Source: Mesoterricola silvestris (GTDB lineage: Bacteria; Acidobacteriota; Holophagae; Holophagales; Holophagaceae). From it: 64,000 nt of DNA. The notes beneath the pieces were generated by a model. The model did not search any database, was not told the origin of the DNA, and saw only the letters and a program-made list of their open reading frames with translations. The stretch spans positions 930,001 through 994,000 of the forward strand of contig NZ_AP027080.1 in assembly GCF_030295405.1 (NCBI RefSeq), written 5' to 3'. Of the stretch, positions 1,005-58,775 are shown piece after piece (position 1 is the stretch's first letter; each line of letters opens with the position of its first letter). The translations under genes were made by a program, and so were the position numbers.

Positions 1005-1877
1005 CTACTTCTTCTTGGGGGGCATGACCTTCTGGCGTTCGGTTTCGGCCTTCTCGGTGGCGCTGGACAGGACGACGATGGAGATGCGCCGGTTCTGGGG
1101 ATCCTTGGGATCCTTGTCCTCCAGGGGCTGGGTGGCGGCGTATCCGGTGACGCGCTGCACCTGGCCCGGGCGCAGGCCGGAGGATTCCAGGACCCTGCGG
1201 GCGGAATTCGCGCGGTCGGCGCTCAGTTCCCAGTTGGTGTAGGCCTGGTTGGGGTACTGCACCGAATCGGTGTGGCCCCCGATGAGGATGTGGTTGGGGA
1301 GCTTGCCCAGCTCCTGGGCGATCTCCTTGAGGATGGCCAGGGTGTAGGGCTTGAGGGTGGCCGACCCGGAATCGAAGAGCACCTGGGCCGCGCGGTCCTG
1401 GATCTGGATGCGGAGCCCCTCGGCGGTGAACTCGAAGGATATCTGGTTGGAGAAGGCCTGGAGGAGCTTGTCCTCCCGGAAGGCCTTGTCGATGGTCTGG
1501 GCCGTCTCCTCCATGACCTTGCGTTCCTGCTCGCCGGTGTCCTCCTCGATGACGATGCCTTCGGGGCCGCCGCCGTCGCCGGTGCCGTCCTTCATGCCGC
1601 GGCCGCCGGGGAGGATGCCGGACTTCTCCATCTTGTAGGCCTCCATGATGGCCTTGCCCTTTTCCGTGTTGAAGAAATTGGGATCCTGGAAGCTGCCGGC
1701 GATGCCGGCCTTGGTGTTGGACGAGGCGCTGGCCAGGAGCCACATGAGGAGGAAGAAGGCCATGAGGGCGGTGACCAGGTCGGCGTAGGCCACCTTCCAG
1801 GCGCCGCCGTGGGCGGCGGCGTGGCCACCCTTCTTCTTGACGAACTTGATTTTGACTTCGGGCTGCTGCTCGGCCAT
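1005..1877 (-). CDS. motB: Flagellar motor stator protein MotB
   Basis: 290 residues. MotB anchors the stator to peptidoglycan and carries the proton-binding Asp of the channel. A basic cytoplasmic N-terminus is followed by one membrane helix containing YADLVTALMAFFLLMWLL; Asp33 matches the essential Asp32 of E. coli MotB. Residues ~145-270 form an OmpA/MotB peptidoglycan-binding domain with VLFDSGSATLKP, GGHTDSVQY and LSADRANSARRVL. The linker is Gly/Asp/Glu rich and the C-terminus is Lys-rich. It starts 6 bases after the motA stop, so the two are one transcription unit. No flagellar or chemotaxis genes other than a receptor near 36 kb are in the window. Confidence 0.95.
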   Translation of the reverse strand: MAEQQPEVKIKFVKKKGGHAAAHGGAWKVAYADLVTALMAFFLLMWLLASASSNTKAGIAGSFQDPNFFNTEKGKAIMEAYKMEKSGILPGGRGMKDGTGDGGGPEGIVIEEDTGEQERKVMEETAQTIDKAFREDKLLQAFSNQISFEFTAEGLRIQIQDRAAQVLFDSGSATLKPYTLAILKEIAQELGKLPNHILIGGHTDSVQYPNQAYTNWELSADRANSARRVLESSGLRPGQVQRVTGYAATQPLEDKDPKDPQNRRISIVVLSSATEKAETERQKVMPPKKK

Positions 1878-6082: not shown

Positions 6083-6852
6083 GGGCCGCGGGCCTGGATC
6101 TGGGCTCCACCACCGTCAAGCTGGTGGTGGTGGAGGCGGGGGCGGTGGTGCGCGCGGAGGTGGCCGACGCCACCGCCGAGCCGCGCCGGGCGGCGGAGGA
6201 CCTGCTGCGGTCCCTGCCGCCCGGGTGCCAGGTGCTGGCCACGGGCTACGGCCGGGATCTGCTGGAAGTGGCCTTCGGCCTGCCGGGCGTCAGCGAGATC
6301 AAGGCCCACGCCACCGGTGCCGGCTTCCTGGTGCCCGGATGCTCCGCGGTCATCGACGTGGGCGGGCAGGACGTGAAGGTGATCAAGCTCGACGGCGCCG
6401 GGCGGGTGCAGAAATTCGAAATGAACGACCGCTGCGCCGCCGGCACCGGCCGCTTCCTGGAGGTCATGGCCCGGCGCCTGGGCTACCGCCTGGAGGCCTT
6501 CCCGGAGGCCGCCGCGGCCGGCACGGAATCGGTGACCATCCATTCCATGTGCACCGTGTTCGCGGAATCGGAAGTGGTGGGCCTGCTCAACCGCGGCGTG
6601 GCCCGGGAGGACCTGGGGCGGGCCCTGCACCTGAGCGTGGCCCGGCGCATCGCCTCCATGTTCGGGCGCACGGGCTGCGACCCGGAGGGCCTCACCCTCT
6701 GCACGGGGGGCGGGGGCGGCAACGCCTTCCTGGTGGCCTGTCTTGGGGATCTCATCGGCGGCCGGGTGCGGACCCACCCCCGGGCCCAGGTGGCCGGGGC
6801 CCTGGGGTGCGCCCTCCTCGCGGCCCAGGGGCAGGGGGCACTTCCCGTTTGA
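6079..6852 (+). CDS. BadF/BadG/HgdC-type ATPase activator (reductase of the double-cubane protein)
   Basis: 257 residues from a GTG at 6079 that overlaps the upstream stop. It is an ASKHA-fold ATPase: phosphate-1 loop AAGLDLGSTTVKLVVVE at the N-terminus, second phosphate loop VIDVGGQDVKVIKLDG at ~91-106, and C-terminal adenosine motif CTGGGGGNAFLVA. Cys119 (DRCAAGTGRF) and Cys158 (HSMCTVFAESE) are 39 residues apart, the same spacing as the two ligands of the dimer-bridging 4Fe-4S cluster in HgdC. The family injects one low-potential electron into its partner at the cost of ATP. Translational coupling to the dehydratase-like gene indicates a dedicated pair. Confidence 0.9.
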   Translation: MRAAGLDLGSTTVKLVVVEAGAVVRAEVADATAEPRRAAEDLLRSLPPGCQVLATGYGRDLLEVAFGLPGVSEIKAHATGAGFLVPGCSAVIDVGGQDVKVIKLDGAGRVQKFEMNDRCAAGTGRFLEVMARRLGYRLEAFPEAAAAGTESVTIHSMCTVFAESEVVGLLNRGVAREDLGRALHLSVARRIASMFGRTGCDPEGLTLCTGGGGGNAFLVACLGDLIGGRVRTHPRAQVAGALGCALLAAQGQGALPV

Positions 6853-7160
6853 GGTGTCGGCAAACCCCAGGTGCCTTAGTACCGTGATGAAGGGGCTCTT
6901 CCTGGTTGAGGGGATCCCAGTTCATCCCTTCCATCGGCGTTCATCCCTGTTTCCGCAGGGCTGCCGCGGAGGTGGGTCGGAGCGCATGTTACGTGACGCC
7001 CCTGACCCAAAGGTGGCGACAACTCCCAGCGAATTTCCAACGGGGATGAAAAGGATTCAGGGGAAAGAGCAGGATAAGGAAGGTCAGGTCAGGTCTGGAA
7101 TCAGATCCTCGAGAACATCCCAGCGATTCATGGCCTCGGGTTCGCCGACCCACCTTAGAC
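6852..7160. repeat. Palindromic intergenic repeat, family 1, copy D (degenerate)
   Basis: This fills the gap between the activator and the PfkB gene. It contains TTCATCCCTTCCATCGGCGT (6921-6940), then TTCATCCCTGTTTCCGCAGG and GGTGGGTCGGAGCGCATG in the middle, and AACGGGGATGAAAAGGATTC with GGGGAAAGAGCAGGATAAGG on the right, the same order as in the copies at 27734 and 56401. The right arm has lost CCCTGCTGG, so the inner stem is broken. The left edge carries GTGTCGGCAAACCC (6854-6867), which appears inverted at the right edge of the copy at 27734-27953. Confidence 0.75.
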
Positions 7161-11270: not shown

Positions 11271-11431
11271 TTCATCCCCTTCATCCCTTTCATCCGTCTT
11301 TTATCCCTGTTCCAGCAGGGCCAGCGATGCGTTGAGTCGGCGCTCGCCTTACCCGGGTGCGCCGACCCATCCCTGCCTTGGCCCTGCTGGAACGGGGATA
11401 AAAAATGGATGAAAGGGATGGAGGGGATGAA
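11271..11431. repeat. Palindromic intergenic repeat, family 1, copy A (inverted orientation)
   Basis: Left arm 11271-11323 and right arm 11379-11431 are 53-base inverted repeats with only about four mismatches; each holds tandem TTCATCCC units (left) or GGGATGAA units (right) and CCAGCAGGGCCA/TGGCCCTGCTGG. The 55-base loop folds again: GTCGGCGC pairs with GCGCCGAC. Relative to the copies at 27734 and 56401 the loop GGGATGGGTCGGCGCA reads on the minus strand, so this copy is flipped. Confidence 0.85.
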
Positions 11432-16895: not shown

Positions 16896-18893
16896 TTGAC
16901 CTTCGCGGCGACGAACATCGACAAACTCTGCATCGACACCATCCGGTGCCTGGCCATGGACGGCGTCCAGAAGGCCAACAGCGGCCACCCCGGCACCCCC
17001 ATGGCCCAGGCCCCCGCGGCCTACGTGCTCTGGACCAAGTTCCTGAAGCACCACCCCGCCAATCCCCTCTGGGCGGACCGGGACCGCTTCGTGCTCTCCT
17101 GCGGGCACGTGTCCATGCTCATGTATTCCCTCCTGCACCTGGCCGGCTACGGCCTGCCCCTGGACGAGCTCAAGGCCTTCCGCCAGTGGGGCTCCAAGAC
17201 CCCCGGGCACCCCGAGTTCGGCCACACCGCCGGGGTCGAGACCACCACGGGCCCCCTGGGCCAGGGCATCGGCAACGCGGTGGGCATGGCCATCGCGGAG
17301 CGCTGGCTCGCGGACCGCTTCAACCGCCCCGGCTTCAAGGTGGTGGACCACCACACCTACGTGTTCGCCGGGGACGGCGACGTCATGGAGGGCATCGCCC
17401 AGGAGGCCGCCAGCATCGCCGGGCATCTGGCCCTGGAGAAGCTCGTCCTGCTCTACGACAACAATTCCATCACCATCGAAGGCCGCACCGACCTGGCCTT
17501 CACGGAGGACGTGGGCAAGCGCTTCGAGGCCTACGGCTGGCGCGTGCTCAAGGTGGCCGACGGCGAGAACCTGGAGGCCCTGGCCGCGGCCTACGCCGAG
17601 GCCGCCACCCCCTGCGGCAAGCCCACCCTCATCGACTGCCGGACCATCATCGGCTTCCCCGCCCCAACCAAGAAGGACACCCACGGCGCCCACGGCTCCC
17701 CCCTGGGCGAGCCCGAGATCCGGGCCACCAAGGAGATCCTGGGCTGGGATCCCGACGGCCACTTCGTGGTGCCCGCCGAGGCCCAGGCCCACTGGAACGC
17801 CTGCGGCACCCGCGGCGCGGCCGCGGAGGGCGCCTGGAAGGAGCTCTTCGCCTCGTACCGGGCCGCCTTCCCGGAACTGGCCGCGGAGTTCGAGGCCTTC
17901 ATGCGGGGCGAGCTGGCCCCGGGCTGGCAGGAGGCCCTGCCGGTCTTCCAGCCCGGCCAGGACCAGGCCACGCGCGAAGCCGGCGGCAAGGTGCTCAACG
18001 CCCTGGCCGGCAAGCTTCCCAACCTCATCGGCGGTTCCGCCGACCTGGCCCCTTCCAACAACACCCACCTCAAGGACGGCGGCGATTTCGGCCCCCGCGC
18101 CAGCGGGCGCAATTTCCACTGGGGCATCCGCGAGCACGGCATGGGCGCCGTCCTCAACGGCATGGCCCTCCACGGCGGCCTGCGGGTCTTCGGGGCCACC
18201 TTCCTGATCTTCTCGGACTACATGCGCCCCAGCGTGCGCCTCGCGGCCCTCATGGGCCTGCCCGTGGACTACGTGTGGACGCACGATTCCATCGGCGTGG
18301 GCGAGGACGGCCCCACCCACCAGCCCGTGGAACAGGTCATGACCCTGCGCATGATCCCGAACATGACCCTCATCCGCCCCGCCGACGCCAACGAGACCGT
18401 GGAGGCCTGGCGCGAAGCCATGGCCCACGCCAACGGCCCCGTGGGCCTGGCCCTCACCCGCCAGAAGCTCCCCGTGCTGGACCCCGCCAAGGCCAAGGGC
18501 GCCGCCAAGGGCGCCTACGTCCTGGAGGAGGCCAGCTCCGCCCCCCGCCTCATCCTCATGGCCACCGGCAGCGAGGTGCACCTTGCCCTCCAGGCCCGCA
18601 AGGCCCTGGAAGCCGACGGCATCCCCACCCGCGTCGTCTCCATGCCCAGCTGGGAGGTCTTCGCGAGGCAGTCCCCCGCCTACCGCGAGGAGGTCCTCCC
18701 CCGCGCCATCACCGCCCGCGTCTCCATCGAGGCCGGCGTCACCTTCGGCTGGGAGAAGTGGGTGGGCTTCCAGGGCGCCTCCATCGGCCTGGACCGCTTC
18801 GGCGCCTCCGCCCCCGCCGAAGTCCTCTTCGAGAAATTCGGCTTCACCGTCGAGAACGTGGTGAAGGTCGCGAAGGGCGTGGCCGGACTCTAG
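16896..18893 (+). CDS. tkt: Transketolase
   Basis: 665 residues; it transfers two-carbon units between sugar phosphates in the pentose phosphate pathway using thiamine diphosphate. Motifs: [11 protein letters not shown] near the start, the ThDP/Mg site [49 protein letters not shown] (catalytic Glu) and [19 protein letters not shown]. The start is the TTG at 16896, seven bases after GAGGT; no in-frame ATG gives a better N-terminus. It is last in argS-pyrG-tkt and followed by a very long palindrome that probably ends the transcript. Confidence 0.95.
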
Positions 18894-18904
18894 GTACGGG
18901 TCCC

Positions 18905-19320
18905 GGACCTTCGCCCCGGTTCGCTGACGCAGACAAGCTGCGTCAGCGGAAGGAGCGCGGATTTGGGACCGGGAGGGGTGCTGCCGCGTTCGTCCTCCGT
19001 TGGATGGGGGTGGGCGAGTGATCCCGGGGCTCCCCGGGGGGGCCTACGTCCCGTGGGCCCGCTGCAAGTGGAGTCTGGAGGCAGGCGGTCCGCGCCGACG
19101 TTGATTTGTGCCTGCATTCAAAGGCATTCAGCGTCGGCGCGGACCGCGTGCCTCCAGACCCCACTCGCAGCGGGCCCATGGAACCCTAGGCCTCCGGGAA
19201 GGGCGGGATCCCCCCCTGACCGGAACCAACAACGAAGCTGGAATGTGAAACCTCGCCCCATCGTCCCCGACGGCACCCAACGAGGCCGGCTTGTCCGGCC
19301 GAGTAACCGGCGCGACGGTC
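18905..19320. repeat. Giant imperfect palindrome, family 2, copy 2
   Basis: No credible gene lies between tkt and the convergent CsgG-like gene. The centre is a 46-base inverted repeat with three mismatches: 19055-19100 (GGGCCCGCTGC...CGCCGACG) against 19132-19177, loop 19101-19131. Symmetry continues outward with more mismatches (GATCCCGGGG/GGGATCCC, TTCGTCCTCCGTTGG against CCAACAACGAAG). The outer ends hold REP-like hairpins in opposite orientation: GACGCAGACAAGCTGCGTC on the left and GGCCGGCTTGTCCGGCC on the right. It may form a bidirectional terminator or a cruciform. Confidence 0.8.
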
Positions 19321-26106: not shown

Positions 26107-27660
26107 ATGCCCCGCGGTTTCCTTCCTGCCCTGATTTTCGCGCTCCCCCTCGCCGCCCAGGCCGACATCGACCGCGCGGTGGAGGGCGCCCGCGCCGCCT
26201 TCAACGTGCCCGGCATGGCCGTGGCGGTGGTGCAGGACGGCAAGGTGGTCCTGGCCAAGGGCTACGGCGTGCGCAGGCTGGGGGCCCCGGCGCCCGTGAC
26301 GCCCGGGACCCTCTTCGCCATCGCCTCCAACACGAAGATCTTCACGGCCTCGGCCCTGGCCATGCTCGTGGACGAAGGGAAGCTTTCCTGGGACGACCGG
26401 GTCGTGGACCGCCTCCCGGGCTTCCAGATGAGCGATCCCTACGTCACCCGCGAGATGCGCATCGGGGACCTGCTCTGCCACCGCAGCGGGCTGGGGCTGG
26501 GGGCCGGGGACCTCATGTTCTTCCCCCCCACCGACCTCACGGCGGAGGAGATCGTCCACCGCCTGCGCTTCGTGCCGCTGGCCACGAGCTTCCGCAGCGC
26601 CTACGCCTACGACAACATCCTCTACACCGTGGCCGGCGAGGTGATCCGGGCGGTGTCCGGCAGGCCCTGGGCCGAGTTCATCCGGGAGCGCTTCTTCGGG
26701 CCCCTGGGCATGGCTTCGAGCCGCACCAGCATCCGGGACGTGCGCCCCGGCGAGGACGTGGCCTCGGCCCACGCCATGGAGGGGGACCGGCTCGTGCCGG
26801 TGGCCCACGAGGTCATGGACAACAGCGCCCCCGCCGGGGCCATCGTGGCGTCCGCCGAGGACATGACGCGGTGGGTGCGGGCGCTGCTGGCCAAGGGGGA
26901 CCTGGGGGGCGGCAAGCGCCTGTTCACCGAGAAGCGGGCCCGGGAGCTGTGGACGCCCCTGACCCTCATTCCCCACCCCGAGCCGCCCCCGGCGCTGGCG
27001 GAGTCCCGGTCCGACTTCCTGGCCTACGCCATGGGCGAGGACGTGCGCACGTACCGGGGCCACCTGGTGGTGTCCCACACCGGGGGCCTCCAGGGCATGG
27101 TGACGGAGGTGACCATGGTGCCCGGGCGGAACCTCGGGATCATCGTCTTCACCAACCAGGAGGAGGGTGCCGCCTTCCGGGCCGTGACGAACACGGTGCT
27201 GGACCACTACCTGGGGGCCCCGGCCAAGGACTGGGTGGGGGCCTACCGGGAGGTGCGGGCCGCCCAGAAGGCCAAGGCCCGGGACGCGGTGGCCGGCGCC
27301 GCGGGGGCCCGCAACGCCGCGTCGAGGCCTTCGCTGCCCCTGGAGGGCTACGCGGGCCGGTACCGGGATCCCTGGTACGGCGACGTCCTGGTGGAGGCCG
27401 CCGGCGGGAAGCTGTCCATTCGGTTCACCCACACCCCGGCCCTCGCCGGAACCCTGGAGCACTGGCAGTACGACACCTTCGTGGCGCGGTGGAAGGACCG
27501 GACCCTGGACGCCGACGCCTACGTGACCTTCTCCCTGGGCCCGGACGGGAAGGTGGCCCGGGTGGCCATGAAGGCCGTCTCGCCTTCCACGGATTTCAGC
27601 TACGACTTTCACGATCTCGCACTGGCCCCCGTGGCGCCGGGAGCACCGGAGCGCTGGTAG
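26107..27660 (+). CDS. Exported beta-lactamase-family serine hydrolase with DUF3471-like C-terminus
   Basis: 517 residues with a signal peptide (MPRGFLPALIFALPLAAQAD). The class C beta-lactamase/DD-peptidase fold has the nucleophile motif Ser74-Asn-Thr-Lys77 (IASNTKIF), the second-motif YAYDN, and HTGG as the KTG-equivalent. The last ~100 residues (LEGYAGRYRDPWYGDVLVE...) match the small beta-barrel (DUF3471) often appended to such hydrolases. Substrates may be beta-lactams, peptides or esters; context does not decide. A GGAG site precedes the ATG. It may be cotranscribed with rsmH, and ends before repeat copy B. Confidence 0.9.
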   Translation: MPRGFLPALIFALPLAAQADIDRAVEGARAAFNVPGMAVAVVQDGKVVLAKGYGVRRLGAPAPVTPGTLFAIASNTKIFTASALAMLVDEGKLSWDDRVVDRLPGFQMSDPYVTREMRIGDLLCHRSGLGLGAGDLMFFPPTDLTAEEIVHRLRFVPLATSFRSAYAYDNILYTVAGEVIRAVSGRPWAEFIRERFFGPLGMASSRTSIRDVRPGEDVASAHAMEGDRLVPVAHEVMDNSAPAGAIVASAEDMTRWVRALLAKGDLGGGKRLFTEKRARELWTPLTLIPHPEPPPALAESRSDFLAYAMGEDVRTYRGHLVVSHTGGLQGMVTEVTMVPGRNLGIIVFTNQEEGAAFRAVTNTVLDHYLGAPAKDWVGAYREVRAAQKAKARDAVAGAAGARNAASRPSLPLEGYAGRYRDPWYGDVLVEAAGGKLSIRFTHTPALAGTLEHWQYDTFVARWKDRTLDADAYVTFSLGPDGKVARVAMKAVSPSTDFSYDFHDLALAPVAPGAPERW

Positions 27661-27733: not shown

Positions 27734-27953
27734 CCATCCCCTTCATCCCCTTCATCCGATTTCATCCCCGTTCCAGCAGGGCCAGCGCCGGGATGGGTCG
27801 GGACATGAAGATCAACTTCGCGCCGCCCCACCCCGGCTAGGGCCCTGCTGGAACGGGGATGAATAGGATCCAGGGGAAAAGGCAGGATAAAGAATGCCAG
27901 GTCCAAGCTGGAGCCGGATCCCAGAGATCAACCCGCCAGGGTTTGCCGACACT
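27734..27953. repeat. Palindromic intergenic repeat, family 1, copy B
   Basis: It lies between two convergent genes. A perfect 23-base inverted repeat, 27761-27783 (TTCATCCCCGTTCCAGCAGG plus GCC) and 27841-27863, flanks a 57-base loop containing GGGATGGGTCGG, CATGAAGATCAAC and CGCGCCGCCCCACC. Upstream are two more TTCATCCCC units. The right flank holds GGGGAAAAGGCAGGATAA and ends with GGGTTTGCCGACAC, the inverse of the left edge of copy D. Confidence 0.87.
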
Positions 27954-27955
27954 CC

Positions 27956-29539
27956 CTATTCCGGAGCCACCACCCGCTCCCCGGGATCCTCCGGCACGAC
28001 GAAGGACAGGTCCTCCAGTTCCGTGATGCCGGCGGCGAGCTGCTCCAGGAGCAGGGCGGGGTCGTGGCGGAAGAAACCGGTGCAGGGGCCGTCCAGGGGC
28101 TCCCGGCGGGCCTCGGCGTCGGCCATGCGCGCCGCGAGTCCGAACCAGGTGATGAGGTCGGCGGCCACGGCGCCCTGGGCGGCCAGGCCCTGGGCCTCGA
28201 ACTGGGCCAGGATGAAGTCCCGCTGGCGGTCGAGAATATCGCCCTCCTCCGGGTGGTCCGCGAACCGGCTGAAGAGTTCGGAGGGCTCCATCCCCAGGGC
28301 GCTCTGGACGATGGCGAACCACGGCACGGCCTTGCCGTCGTTGTAGAAGGCGTCGCAGGCCCGGGCGACGCGGGCGGCCTGGGCCAGGTCCGCGGCGGGG
28401 AAGGCCGGGGAGCCGGTGACGAGGTAGGGGCTCGCGGGCTGGTGCTCCAGGCGGAACGAAGGGGCCGTTTCGAAGAGCCGGGTGCCGGGCAGGACCGCCA
28501 GGCAGAAGATGTCCAGGTGGTTGGGGGCCAGGCCCAGGGCGAAGTCCAGGCTGGCCTTGAAGCCCTCCAGGTCGTCCCCGGGCAGGCCGTAGATGAGGTC
28601 GAACCCGTAGGTGGCCCCGGCGCGGTGGAGGAGGAGGATCCGGCTTTCGAAGGCGTCCGGGTCGATCCTGCGGTTGATGTTGCGCAGCACCGCGTCGTGG
28701 GCGCTCTGGAGGCCGATCTGGAGGGTGCAGCGGATGGACGCGAAGAGCCCGGCCAGCTCCCGGTCGATGAATTCGCTGCGGATCTCGAAGAAGAAGTGGA
28801 TGGCCGGGGCCTCGGCGGCGATGAGGCGCAGCACGGCCTTGGCCCGTTCCCGGTCGAAGTTGAAGGTGGGGTCCAGCACGAAGACCTGGCTGACGCCCTT
28901 GGCCTCGAAGAGGCGCAGCTCCGCCTCCACCCGCTCCATGGGAATGCGCCGGGTGCCCGAACCCCCGCGGGACTCGAAGCAGAAATCGCACTTGAAGGGG
29001 CAGCCGCGGCTCAGTTCCCACAGCTGGCCCGGGTAGGCCGCGGGGTCCAGGGTCCCGTCCAGGTAGGGGCTGGGCAGCGCGGCCAGGTCGGCCACGGGGG
29101 CGGGGCGGAGCCGGGCCTGCAGGGTGCGGGGATCCAGGCCCCGGAGGAGGTGGGTGACGGCCTCCACGATGAGGTCCTCGCCCTCCCCGGGAAGCACGAG
29201 GTCCATGGCGGGATCGGCCAGCACGCCCCCGGGGTCCGCGGTGGCCTCGGAACCGCCGGCGAAGATCACCAGGTCCGGCTTCCGCGCCCGCAGCACCCGG
29301 GCCACGGCCAGGGCCCGGCCGCGGTTCCACAGGTACATGGAAAAGCCCACCCACCGGGGATCGTCCTCCAGGATCCGGTCCGCGCAGGCTTCGGGGCTCT
29401 GGTCCAGGTAGAGGTCCAGCACCCGCACGGCGACCTCCGCGCCGAAGGAGCGCCGCAGCACCGAGGCCAGCATGGCCGGTCCCAGGGGCACCGCCCGGGC
29501 CGAGGGTTCCAGATGTAGGGCCACCAGAACCAGGTCCAT
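27956..29539 (-). CDS. B12-binding-domain radical SAM protein
   Basis: 527 residues from the ATG at 29539, preceded by GGGGGAGG. The N-terminal cobalamin-binding Rossmann domain (1-150) shows LVALHLEPSARAVPLGPAML, VGFSMYLWNR and DLVIFAGGSEATADP. The radical SAM core has the cluster motif Cys180-x3-Cys184-x2-Cys187 (RGCPFKCDFCF), then VLDPTFNFDRERAK, EIRSEFIDREL and GLQSAHDAVLRNINR. A DUF4080-like C-terminal helical region follows. Members carry out methylations and other difficult radical reactions; the substrate is unknown. The gene is monocistronic, divergent from the LysE gene. Confidence 0.9.
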   Translation of the reverse strand: MDLVLVALHLEPSARAVPLGPAMLASVLRRSFGAEVAVRVLDLYLDQSPEACADRILEDDPRWVGFSMYLWNRGRALAVARVLRARKPDLVIFAGGSEATADPGGVLADPAMDLVLPGEGEDLIVEAVTHLLRGLDPRTLQARLRPAPVADLAALPSPYLDGTLDPAAYPGQLWELSRGCPFKCDFCFESRGGSGTRRIPMERVEAELRLFEAKGVSQVFVLDPTFNFDRERAKAVLRLIAAEAPAIHFFFEIRSEFIDRELAGLFASIRCTLQIGLQSAHDAVLRNINRRIDPDAFESRILLLHRAGATYGFDLIYGLPGDDLEGFKASLDFALGLAPNHLDIFCLAVLPGTRLFETAPSFRLEHQPASPYLVTGSPAFPAADLAQAARVARACDAFYNDGKAVPWFAIVQSALGMEPSELFSRFADHPEEGDILDRQRDFILAQFEAQGLAAQGAVAADLITWFGLAARMADAEARREPLDGPCTGFFRHDPALLLEQLAAGITELEDLSFVVPEDPGERVVAPE

Positions 29540-29621
29540 GCGTGCCGCCTCCCCCTGAATCATAGGCGGGACCGCGGGGAAAGGGCATCGGCGCGGCCCG
29601 GAGGGCGGTATATTTTTCCCC

Positions 29622-30254
29622 ATGATCGTCGCCGTCCTCGTGGGATTCGCCTTCGGCTTCATCGGCTCCATGCCGGTGGCGGGGCCCATCGCCCTGCTGG
29701 TGCTGCGCCTGGGGCTCAACCACGACGCGCGCCACGCGCGGTACGTGGCCATCGGCGGGGCCGTGGCGGAGGGGCTCTATTCCCTGGCGGCCTTCTGGGG
29801 GCTCAGCACGGTGCTGGACCGGCACCCCCGGGTCCTGCCCGCCAGCCGCCTGGTGGGGGCGGTGTTGTGCCTGGTCCTGGGCATCGTCCTGCTGCTCCAC
29901 CGGCCCAAGCCCGGGCCCCCGCCGGGCCAGCCGGAACGCAGGAAGGGCACCAAGCGCAGCCTCCTGGGGGGATTCCTCCTCACGGCCCTGAACCCCACCC
30001 TGCTGGTCACCTGGACGGCGGCCCTGGCCGCGCTCCACGCCACCGGCCTGGTCACCCTGTCCCCGGAGCGGGCCGTGCCCTTCGCCCTGGCGGTGTTCGT
30101 GGGCATCGTGGCCTGGTTCTCCACGCTGCTGTGGCTGGTGCGCCGGTTCAAGGGGCGCTGGAGCCCGGCTTCGGTGGAGTGGTTCATCAAGGGCATGGGG
30201 GCCGTGCTGGTGGGCGCGGCGGGGGTGGTGCTGCTGCGGGCGCTCATCGGGTAG
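29622..30254 (+). CDS. LysE-family amino acid exporter
   Basis: 210 residues with six membrane segments. The N-terminus GFAFGFIGSMPVAGPIALLV matches the LysE/RhtB motif with the conserved Pro-x-x-G-P; KRSLLGGFLLTALNPTLLVTW is the second hallmark (Asn-Pro in TM4). It should export an amino acid or a small metabolite. A TATATT at 29609-29614 lies just 7 bases before the ATG and there is no ribosome site, so the mRNA may be leaderless. A 44-base gap separates it from the next small gene. Confidence 0.85.
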   Translation: MIVAVLVGFAFGFIGSMPVAGPIALLVLRLGLNHDARHARYVAIGGAVAEGLYSLAAFWGLSTVLDRHPRVLPASRLVGAVLCLVLGIVLLLHRPKPGPPPGQPERRKGTKRSLLGGFLLTALNPTLLVTWTAALAALHATGLVTLSPERAVPFALAVFVGIVAWFSTLLWLVRRFKGRWSPASVEWFIKGMGAVLVGAAGVVLLRALIG

Positions 30255-56112: not shown

Positions 56113-56400
56113 GGGGACTCCGGGGCAAGCCGGAACCTGCGGCGAAGGGGCCGGGGCCCGGAGCATGGGGTGATGGTGGCCCCAGCCTGCCGTACTTCCC
56201 CCCGCCCCGCAAGCTGGCTCCGCGTTCCGGCCCACCCCGTCATATGAATGTTTTCGTCCCATCTCGCGCATTCCCGATCGGGGCAATGCGCCGGGGATCC
56301 CCTATCGAATTCGGAAACGCAGGTGGATCGGCCGCCTCCATGGGGTCAAGTACCCCTTCGCCCCGCGTCCACGCCGCTGGAGGCCCTGAGGGCTATCCCC

Positions 56401-56560
56401 TCTTTCATCCCCTTCATCCCGTTCATCCTATTTCATCCCCGTTCCCGCAGGGCCAGAGCAGGGATGGGTCGGCGCATGCAGATCAACCGCGCGCCGCCCC
56501 ACCTCATCGCTTGCCCTGCGGGAACAGGGATGAGAATGGATTAACAGGATGAAGGGGATC
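56401..56560. repeat. Palindromic intergenic repeat, family 1, copy C
   Basis: In the 555-base gap between the transglutaminase and asd genes. Left arm 56407-56454 (ATCCCCTTCATCCC..., TTCATCCCCGTTCCCGCAGG) and right arm 56511-56559 form a long stem; the loop GGGATGGGTCGGCGCATG, CAGATCAACC, GCGCGCCGCCCC folds into an inner 10-pair stem. It differs from copies A and B by C at 56446 for A and G at 56520 for T, a change that keeps the pair. The rest of the gap shows no gene. Confidence 0.87.
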
Positions 56561-56667
56561 AGCCGCCGAACTCAGCCCGTTCCCGGACGAGGAGCCGGAC
56601 ATCGTTTTCATTGAAGAGCTATCGGCTGGCATCGGTAGTGATAGGTGGGGTTGGTCGAGAACCCGGG

Positions 56668-57720
56668 CTAGGAAACGAGCCCCTGCGACACCGCCAGCTC
56701 CGCGTTGAGCACGGATCCCCCCGCCGCGCCCCGCTCCGTGTTGTGGCCCAGGAGCGCGAACTTGATGCCCAGGACGTTGCACGGGCGGATGCGGCCCACG
56801 TGGACGCTCATGCCGCCGTCCAGCTCCACGTCCCGGCGCACCTGGGGGCGGTTCTCGGCGGTGTGGAGGCGGATGGGGACCTCGGGGGCGCTGGGCAGGC
56901 CCAGGCGCTGGGGCAGCGGCTTCCAGGCCGCCAGGACCTCGCGCACCTGGTCGGGGGTGGGGTTGCCCTTGAGGCGGACGCTGACGCTCTCGGTGTGGCC
57001 GTCCATGACGGGGGCGCGGTAGCACAGGGCCGAGACCGCCATGGGATCGGACACCGCCAGGCCGTCCACGACCTTGCCCAGGAGGCGCCCGGTCTCCACC
57101 TCCACCTTGCCCTCCTCGCCGCCGATGTGGGGGAGGATGTTGCCCATGATGTCCAGGCTGGGCACGCCGGGATAGCCGGCGCCGCTCACGGCCTGCATGG
57201 AGGTCATGATCACCGTCTCCACCCCGAAGGCCTCGTGCAGGGGGGCCAGGGCCATCACCAGGACCGTGGTGGTGCAGTTGGGATTGGTGAGGATGCTGCC
57301 CTTCCAGTCCCGGCGCCGGCGCTGGGTCTCCAGCAGGGCCAGGTGGCCGGGGTTCACTTCGGGCACCAGGAGCGGCACGTCGGGATCCATGCGGAAGGAC
57401 GCGGCGTTGCTGAAGACGTGGGCCCCGGCCCGGGCGAAGGCGGGCTCGATCTCCTTGGCGGGGGCGTTGTCCAGGGCGCTGAAGACGATGGGGGAGAAGG
57501 CCTCCGCCGGGTCCGAAGGCGCGAGCACCTGGTCCCCCAGGCCCGCGTAGGGCTCCCCATCCAGGCGCCATTCGCAGGCGTCCCGGTAGCGCTTGCCGGC
57601 GCTGCGGTCGCTGGCGGCGATGCCGACCACTTCGAACATGGGGTGGTTCCGGAGCCGGCGCACGAAGCGCTGGCCCACGACGCCGGTGGCGCCCAGGACG
57701 GTGACGGGGATGCGGTTCAT
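56668..57720 (-). CDS. asd: Aspartate-semialdehyde dehydrogenase
   Basis: 350 residues. It reduces aspartyl phosphate to the semialdehyde with NADPH. VTVLGATGVVGQRFVRRL is the nucleotide-binding start; ILTNPNCTTTVLVMAL contains the catalytic Cys149; SMQAVSGAGYPG and the C-terminal GHNTERGAAGGSVLNAEL are present. The sequence pattern is of the archaeal/fungal type rather than the enterobacterial one. It is the last gene of the lysine operon; its ATG overlaps the dapE stop (ATGA). Confidence 0.94.
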   Translation of the reverse strand: MNRIPVTVLGATGVVGQRFVRRLRNHPMFEVVGIAASDRSAGKRYRDACEWRLDGEPYAGLGDQVLAPSDPAEAFSPIVFSALDNAPAKEIEPAFARAGAHVFSNAASFRMDPDVPLLVPEVNPGHLALLETQRRRRDWKGSILTNPNCTTTVLVMALAPLHEAFGVETVIMTSMQAVSGAGYPGVPSLDIMGNILPHIGGEEGKVEVETGRLLGKVVDGLAVSDPMAVSALCYRAPVMDGHTESVSVRLKGNPTPDQVREVLAAWKPLPQRLGLPSAPEVPIRLHTAENRPQVRRDVELDGGMSVHVGRIRPCNVLGIKFALLGHNTERGAAGGSVLNAELAVSQGLVS

Positions 57721-58775
57721 GGCTGCTCCTGGAGAAAATGCCGGGCGAGGCGCAGGTTGAGATCGGCGCCGGCCGCGAGGTCCTGCATGGTGAGGTGTTC
57801 GTTTTCCGTGTGGGCCACGCGGATGCTGCCGGGCCCCGCGAGGGCCGCCGCTAGGCCTGGGATGAGCGCCCGCAGGCAGGGGGCGTCGGACCCGAAGGGC
57901 ATGAAGGCCCGGTCGAAGCCGGCCAGCGCCGGGTAGAGACTGGGGGGTTCGTCCACCAGCAGATCCACCTCGCCCCGGGTGGGGCGCAGGGCCTCCACCC
58001 GGGCCTGGAAGGAGGATCCGGGCACGGTGCGCACGTTGAGCAGGGCCTGGGCGCGGTCGGGGACGATGTTCACGGCCTCGCCGCCCTGGATGGTGCCGAG
58101 GTTCCACACCTCGGGGCCCAGGTCGGGATCCCGGCCCAGGGGGATCCGGCGCACCCCCTCCAGCCAGTCCAGGAGCTCCAGGATGGCATTGTGGCCCAGC
58201 TCCGGGCTGCCGCCGTGGGCGGCCGTGCCGGTGCACCGGAGGCGGAGGTTCTTCACCCCCCGCTGGCCCGTGGCCACCTTCAGCTCCGTGGGTTCGCCGT
58301 TGATGAGGGCCCGGCAGGAACGGAAGCGGTCCTTCCAGGTCAGGGCCTCCTGGGCGCCCAGGCTGTCGGTCTCCTCCCCGGCGACCCCCAGCCAGGCCAC
58401 CCCGGATTCCCGCAGGGCCTCGGCGGCCAGGAGCTGGGCCACGATCTGGCCCTTGGCGTCGCAGGCCCCCCGGGCGAAGAGGGTCCCGCCCTCCCACCGC
58501 GGGGGCAGGAAGGGCGGCACCGTGTCCAGGTGGGTGGAGAAGAGGATCCGGGGCTCGCCCCAGGTGGCCAGCACATTGCACCGGCCGGGGCTGAATTCAT
58601 GCACCTCCACCCGGGCCCCCAGGGCCTCCAGGGCGGGGAGCAGGGCGGGAAGCAGCGCGGCCTCCCGGCCCGTGGTGGAATCCAGGGCGCAGAGGTCCTC
58701 GAGGAGCCGGCGGGGCTGAAGCGTGGATGCTTCCATCCCAGCACCGTCCCATGGCGGTCCCGTGATTTCAACCAT
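57717..58775 (-). CDS. dapE: M20-family succinyl-diaminopimelate desuccinylase
   Basis: 352 residues. It removes succinate from N-succinyl-LL-diaminopimelate. Metal ligands are visible in FSTHLDTVPPFLP (His, with catalytic Asp), ARGACDAKGQIVAQ (Asp), GVAGEETDSLGAQE (catalytic and metal Glu) and the C-terminal VAHTENEHLTMQDL (His). The lid domain holds CTGTAAHGGSPELGHNAI. The ATG at 58775 directly follows the lysA stop and has GGAGG upstream. The position among lysine genes supports DapE over other M20 deacylases. Confidence 0.88.
   Translation of the reverse strand: MVEITGPPWDGAGMEASTLQPRRLLEDLCALDSTTGREAALLPALLPALEALGARVEVHEFSPGRCNVLATWGEPRILFSTHLDTVPPFLPPRWEGGTLFARGACDAKGQIVAQLLAAEALRESGVAWLGVAGEETDSLGAQEALTWKDRFRSCRALINGEPTELKVATGQRGVKNLRLRCTGTAAHGGSPELGHNAILELLDWLEGVRRIPLGRDPDLGPEVWNLGTIQGGEAVNIVPDRAQALLNVRTVPGSSFQARVEALRPTRGEVDLLVDEPPSLYPALAGFDRAFMPFGSDAPCLRALIPGLAAALAGPGSIRVAHTENEHLTMQDLAAGADLNLRLARHFLQEQP

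Follow-up and report, generated by a model that had tools for sequence, protein, structure and literature searches.

The window analyzed here is a stretch of 64,000 nt (G000:C1:930001-994000) from the 5.0-Mb single-contig genome of Mesoterricola silvestris, a member of the Holophagaceae. The focal palindrome, copy A, is located between two converging genes (Table 1). A long palindromic stretch in it (27761-27863) has arms of 41 nt that are 88% complementary, and a clear terminal repeat was found on one side only, with its outer TAG serving as the stop codon of the minus-strand gene. A segment of the same copy was aligned to the end of the transposase and the adjoining arm of a complete type II element, and this segment would be the relic of an internal deletion in an autonomous type II IS5 element. 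Long palindromes were also found in copy B (arms of 73 nt, complementarity of 85%) and copy C (56407-56559; arms of 69 nt, 81%), and the predicted folding of copies A, B and C was approximately −87 to −123 kcal/mol.

Table 1. Coordinates of the palindromes of the window, their parts and flanking genes, and of the IS630-type element of genome G004.
Feature	Position	Strand	Remarks
Copy A (focal), inner array hairpin	27735..27877	− (by loop orientation)	Profile score 120 bits
Copy A, transposase C-terminal end and adjoining palindrome arm of type II IS5	27851..27919	−	Aligned to L282:1367-1435
Copy A, type II terminal inverted repeat	27940..27958	−	TAGGGAGTGTCGGCAAACC, read on the minus strand
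Beta-lactamase-family protein with DUF3471	26107..27660	+	Flanking gene converging on copy A
B12-binding radical SAM protein	27956..29752	−	Flanking gene converging on copy A
Copy D, type II miniature element	6852..7160	+	No GxxExxY gene; aligns over almost its full length with L291:1303-2082
Copy B, palindrome alone	11271..11431	+	No terminal repeats found
Copy C, inner palindrome of a type I element	56405..56560	−	
Copy C, type I terminal repeat	56647..56671	−	CTAGCCCGGGTTCTCGACCAACCCC
Copy C, second terminal repeat	56215..56239	+	Weak, 18/25 positions
IS630-type element of G004	L287:65-1934		DDE_3 transposase, CTAG at both ends
IS630-type element of G004, parts	Hairpin ~1254-1400; GxxExxY gene 1417-1872		

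The elements extend beyond the limits originally given for them: the copy reported from 56401 reaches a CTAG at 56668-56671, which contains the stop codon of a minus-strand ORF (56668-58581), and the focal copy has a terminal repeat that ends at 27958. No type I, II or III end was found within 380 nt of copy B, which thus lacks the terminal repeats by which a MITE is recognized. Copy D, presented in the original prediction as a like member, does belong to the family; it is a diverged one, with different ends (terminal repeat TGTCGGCAAACCC) and kinship to a gene-bearing element. These type II ends match those of the transposase-bearing elements L282, L285 and L288. A near-perfect inverted repeat of another kind, with arms of 57 nt (89%), was observed at 19048-19184, between a plus-strand gene with its stop in the CTAG at 18890-18893 and another CTAG at 19186, and is possibly a second, unrelated CTAG-bounded palindromic element.

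The search for further copies in the genome found many. The arm pattern gave 206 matches (99 forward and 107 reverse) and the reversed-pattern control none, and the family comprises approximately 100 copies, 83 of which, some of them partial, were read with their flanks, together with copies from three sister species. The existence of the palindromes and their occurrence in both orientations had been correctly described, whereas the family is not one of four copies. In a DNA search of 60 genomes, the palindrome was restricted to this genus, where it occurred in the present genome and in three of the five sister genomes. Spread by phages was rejected, since the exact arm pattern was absent from the viral contigs searched and the GxxExxY protein described below was absent from phage records at E 1e-5.

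Most copies are part of elements of 290-460 bp with terminal inverted repeats starting with CTAG. Alignment of the flanks defined a type I end, a conserved 25-nt inverted repeat, CTAGCCCAAGTTTCCGACCCACCCC, starting with CTAG and separated from the palindrome by an outer zone; on the side of arm X it was located 110-114 nt from the palindrome in most of the copies where it was found. Both type I ends were recognized in 12 copies, with a total length of 289-458 bp, and one end in 31, compared with 2/232 in a reversed-flank control. None of the three end types was recognizable in 34 of the 83 copies, copy B included. These copies may have decayed or may have moved otherwise, and the palindrome might also move alone. 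The terminal repeats vary between elements and the palindrome is conserved; the consensus of the miniature forms contains about four TTCATCC-type units per arm, 9 nt apart. Relative to the outer arms, the asymmetric loop was present in either orientation (20 vs 28), as expected from inversion of the center of a long inverted repeat, which would be the mechanism at work.

The genomic context of the copies was analyzed next to genes called with a simple and crude codon-usage script. Among the 74 well-scoring copies that could be scored, 51 were located between convergent genes, 20 between tandem genes and 3 between divergent genes, which agrees with the intergenic position originally claimed. 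The convergent bias was pronounced when compared with the gene pairs of the window (8/43; p ~5e-21). Type I elements often have a TAG stop codon within the terminal CTAG, at one end or at both. The joined flanks of six elements were searched for in sister genomes, and for type I elements located elsewhere in the genome than the window copies, intact sites with a single CTAG were found in the relatives G004, G005 or G002 at four loci (G000 702544, 4039582, 4140448 and 4153324). Two converging genes share this CTAG as their stop, except at 4140448, where it is a stop just before the start of the next gene. Four extra bases were observed at the left junction of 4153324, one relative had eight extra bases beside the CTAG at 4039582, and the relatives had no clean CTAG at 196816. 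CTAG occurs 11 times in the window, compared with 68 expected, a depletion of approximately six-fold. Since this tetranucleotide is scarce and often a stop codon, a transposase that chooses it tends to land at stop codons, and since the duplicated CTAG keeps both stop codons intact, the convergent-gene bias is explained without a regulatory role. Wherever an insertion was resolved to the base, it showed IS ends and a TA or CTAG site.

Autonomous parents were found both in this genome and in that of a sister species, G001. The latter contains a 1.07-kb IS (L149:1464-2533) with DUF4096 and DDE_Tnp_1 ORFs and 17-bp ends, and the palindrome is located directly after the transposase stop. This transposase matches PF01609, PF13340 and NF033580 (NCBIfam, IS5 family) and is thus an IS5-type DDE enzyme. 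The sequence GAAGTGGTAACAAAACC was present at both ends in L149 and L150, and TAA/TTA duplications flanked L149, L150 and L151; in L106 the two flanks differed, TAA being at one and TTA at the other. Three copies encode identical ORF-B proteins, and therefore the IS moved recently, palindrome included. The insertion of the L149 copy lies within another GxxExxY gene or at its end (L149:1189-1473, a truncated frame of 94 aa). An internally deleted relative was found in the genome under study (L254), with both ends, a transposase tail of about 25 aa and the palindrome.

The type II parents of this genome, with ends CTAGGGGCTGTCGGCAAACCC, are 1.5-kb elements around GxxExxY genes at 139.9 and 841.0 kb, and a shorter relative is located near 2781.7 kb. 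Each 1.5-kb element carries the transposase, then the left arm, the GxxExxY gene, the right arm and the terminal repeat, and the arms have diverged further than they have in the miniature copies. A GxxExxY gene between inverted arms was observed in L282, L285, L288 and L291 of this genome and in L283 of G001. No transposase was seen between the ends of L291, also of type II, and copy D corresponds along almost its whole length to L291 minus the GxxExxY gene. The miniature elements are short and non-coding, with terminal repeats in common with an autonomous IS through type II; for type I, to which copy C belongs, no autonomous element was found in this genome, and an IS5 origin is suggested by one relic in G001 (L102) and by the CTAG target preference. 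An IS630 origin within this genome was rejected, since PF13358 is absent from it, although a carrier of IS630 type exists in G004. In G001, another IS5-type transposase has about 40 copies, and truncated fragments of GxxExxY lie a few hundred bases from it, which suggests a further IS5 and GxxExxY lineage in decay.

The gene between the arms encodes a confident GxxExxY protein of the PD-(D/E)XK nuclease superfamily, with matches to TIGR04256 and PF13366 far above the cut-off. To our knowledge, no function has been assigned to this family, which was present in 73 of the 199 genomes of the phylum. An inverted match between the upstream and downstream sequences (200 nt on each side) flanked 25 of the 27 loci of the phylum with enough flank to be tested, the threshold being the 99th percentile obtained with shifted windows at these loci; the median was 44 and the control mean 18. 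Where the two flanks match, they consist of arrays of repeated units, for example CACAGAG, CGCAGATGA or CACCGATGA, with a usual spacing of 8-10 nt. A different inverted array accompanies a further GxxExxY gene of this genome (L294), and G004 contains seven copies, 99% identical, of a 1.87-kb IS630-type element with a complete array hairpin and a GxxExxY gene (Table 1). With IS5 and IS630 carriers and unlike arrays, the pairing of array and GxxExxY gene recurs with unrelated sequences in two transposase families.

The base pairing of the arms was also analyzed. The exchange of an A-T pair (27775/27849) for a C-G pair (56446/56520), quoted in the original prediction, was confirmed in the sequence, and over 70 aligned copies the same pair was C-G in 53, A-T in 5 and mismatched in 12. 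An alternative Watson-Crick pair was present in 124 cells of this alignment, where the cells are sequences and not independent events. Co-variation is thus real, although changes on a single arm also occur. The view that the paired changes reflect selection on (RNA) structure was not supported. With the two loop-proximal pairs left out, the mismatched arm cells were G-U in 75 and A-C in 68 cases (p=0.62), with 140 other mismatches; selection on one RNA strand would favor G-U, which was no commoner than A-C. The CATCC cores, repeated every 9 nt, were near-invariant on both arms and the changes were concentrated in the spacers, a pattern that fits sequence-specific recognition of the units together with copying of DNA from arm to arm, a process that would leave such paired changes.

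Taken as a whole, these results make it highly probable that the palindromes represent a non-coding hairpin module carried by insertion sequences, mostly of the IS5 family, and that most copies are MITEs moved in trans to CTAG or TA sites. The mobility is well supported, and the roles of the hairpin and of the GxxExxY protein are put forward here as candidates. One type of complete element has a GxxExxY gene downstream of the transposase gene, with an inverted TTCATCC-type array on each side. Miniature derivatives would then have lost both genes while keeping the terminal repeats and the arms, and as a result of the gene loss the two facing arms are now separated by a short loop. IS5-type transposases would have moved these miniatures in trans into TA-centered sites, typically CTAG, and arm-to-arm copying together with central inversion would have generated the paired changes and the random loop orientation. 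The arrays may be sites for the GxxExxY protein or may form a protective hairpin.

The same observations can be read with the nuclease as the driving element. The array hairpin and the GxxExxY gene could be a mobile cassette, inserted, often into IS, by the putative action of the nuclease on the arrays, so that the palindromes would be gene-less relics and the IS5 carriage secondary. The presence of the pair with different arrays in IS5 elements and in the seven nearly identical IS630-type copies of G004 speaks in its favor, as do the arrays at 25/27 testable loci without a tested IS5 transposase within 1.5 kb, the terminal repeats that differ while the palindrome is conserved, and the 34 copies without terminal repeats. 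We regard this as possible and as the less probable account, since all base-resolved insertions show IS ends with a TA/CTAG site and the role of the nuclease is putative. In a related proposal, held equally tentatively, the GxxExxY gene and its inverted arrays of 8-10-nt units might be an undescribed phylum-wide selfish or accessory module, with a protein that would recognize or cut the hairpin; it would move alone or ride on IS5 and IS630 elements, and the approximately 100 palindromes would be its gene-less descendants.

Retention of the hairpins for transcription is unlikely, whether they would act between converging genes as bidirectional terminators or insulators or would form the 3′ end of the transposase transcripts. 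The stems are very stable, the placement between convergent genes is strong and the palindrome of G001 follows the transposase stop, but no consistent T tract was observed at the arm ends of the copies inspected, there is no excess of G-U, and the placement is already accounted for by the targeting of CTAG at stop codons that two genes share. Even less credit can be given to the structured regulatory RNA family of the original prediction, selected for base pairing: double-sided changes do occur at many arm pairs, as the 124 alternative Watson-Crick cells indicate, but the mismatch counts, the near-invariant unit cores and a loop orientation that is random relative to the flanks argue against it, and Rfam 15 gave no match above the gathering cut-off in the window. 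The linked TnpA-REP transposase that had been proposed was not found either, with no match to PF01797 (Y1 TnpA-REP) in the genome, and the actual link is to IS5-family transposases and GxxExxY genes. Although the copies are intergenic, palindromic and numerous, this result, units of about 155 nt instead of 20-40 nt, and terminal repeats with site duplication leave a REP/BIME family moved by a RAYT transposase with hardly any probability.

Among known systems, REP/BIME elements share the high-copy extragenic palindromes and differ in length, in their ends and in the Y1 transposase, absent here. Correia and RUP elements are IS630-linked. Like these and other bacterial MITEs (reviewed in PMC10969869), the family has many short non-autonomous copies with terminal repeats and some palindrome-like truncations; it differs from Correia and RUP in its IS5 link and in having a central array hairpin of 155 nt that derives from the module of an accessory gene. 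The closest likeness is to the IS427-like members of the IS5 family, with a split transposase (DUF4096 and DDE_Tnp_1), short terminal repeats and TA-centered targets. The 4-bp site duplicated by IS5 itself is C(A/T)A(G/A) (PMC11677980), and in Paracoccus the elements of the IS427 group have repeats of 2-4 bp and two ORFs that overlap (PMC3281130). The elements described here differ in the long inverted-array hairpin after the transposase, sometimes with a GxxExxY gene between the arms, and their miniature forms differ from IS5-family MITEs in being located mostly at shared stop codons. A palindrome family of short repeats is thereby traced back to its source through autonomous parents, an intermediate that has lost the gene, and intact sites, and it becomes clear how insertion at CTAG can be harmless, since both stop codons of converging genes are restored.

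The gene between the arms matches both models of the GxxExxY family, and the flanking arrays are what sets it apart. In the literature searched, the family was barely mentioned and no description of flanking inverted short-repeat arrays was found; a lead concerning a four-helix bundle also yielded nothing. A common and almost unstudied family is thus tied to inverted short-repeat arrays, which gives it a testable candidate substrate. Six of eight plasmid-borne GxxExxY records were read, and clear inverted arrays were observed in two (Sphingomonas and Bernardetia) and a short one in one (Treponema), while the other three had no arrays or direct repeats only. The association is therefore strong in Acidobacteriota, mixed outside the phylum and unproven as universal. 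GxxExxY modules are a likely source of many unexplained short-repeat arrays, such as those of CACAGAG units, in environmental genomes. On the plasmid of Sphingomonas parapaucimobilis (L346, 1474-1902), a gene cluster for fatty-acid synthesis contains a GxxExxY gene and its inverted flanking arrays between fabD and fabG.
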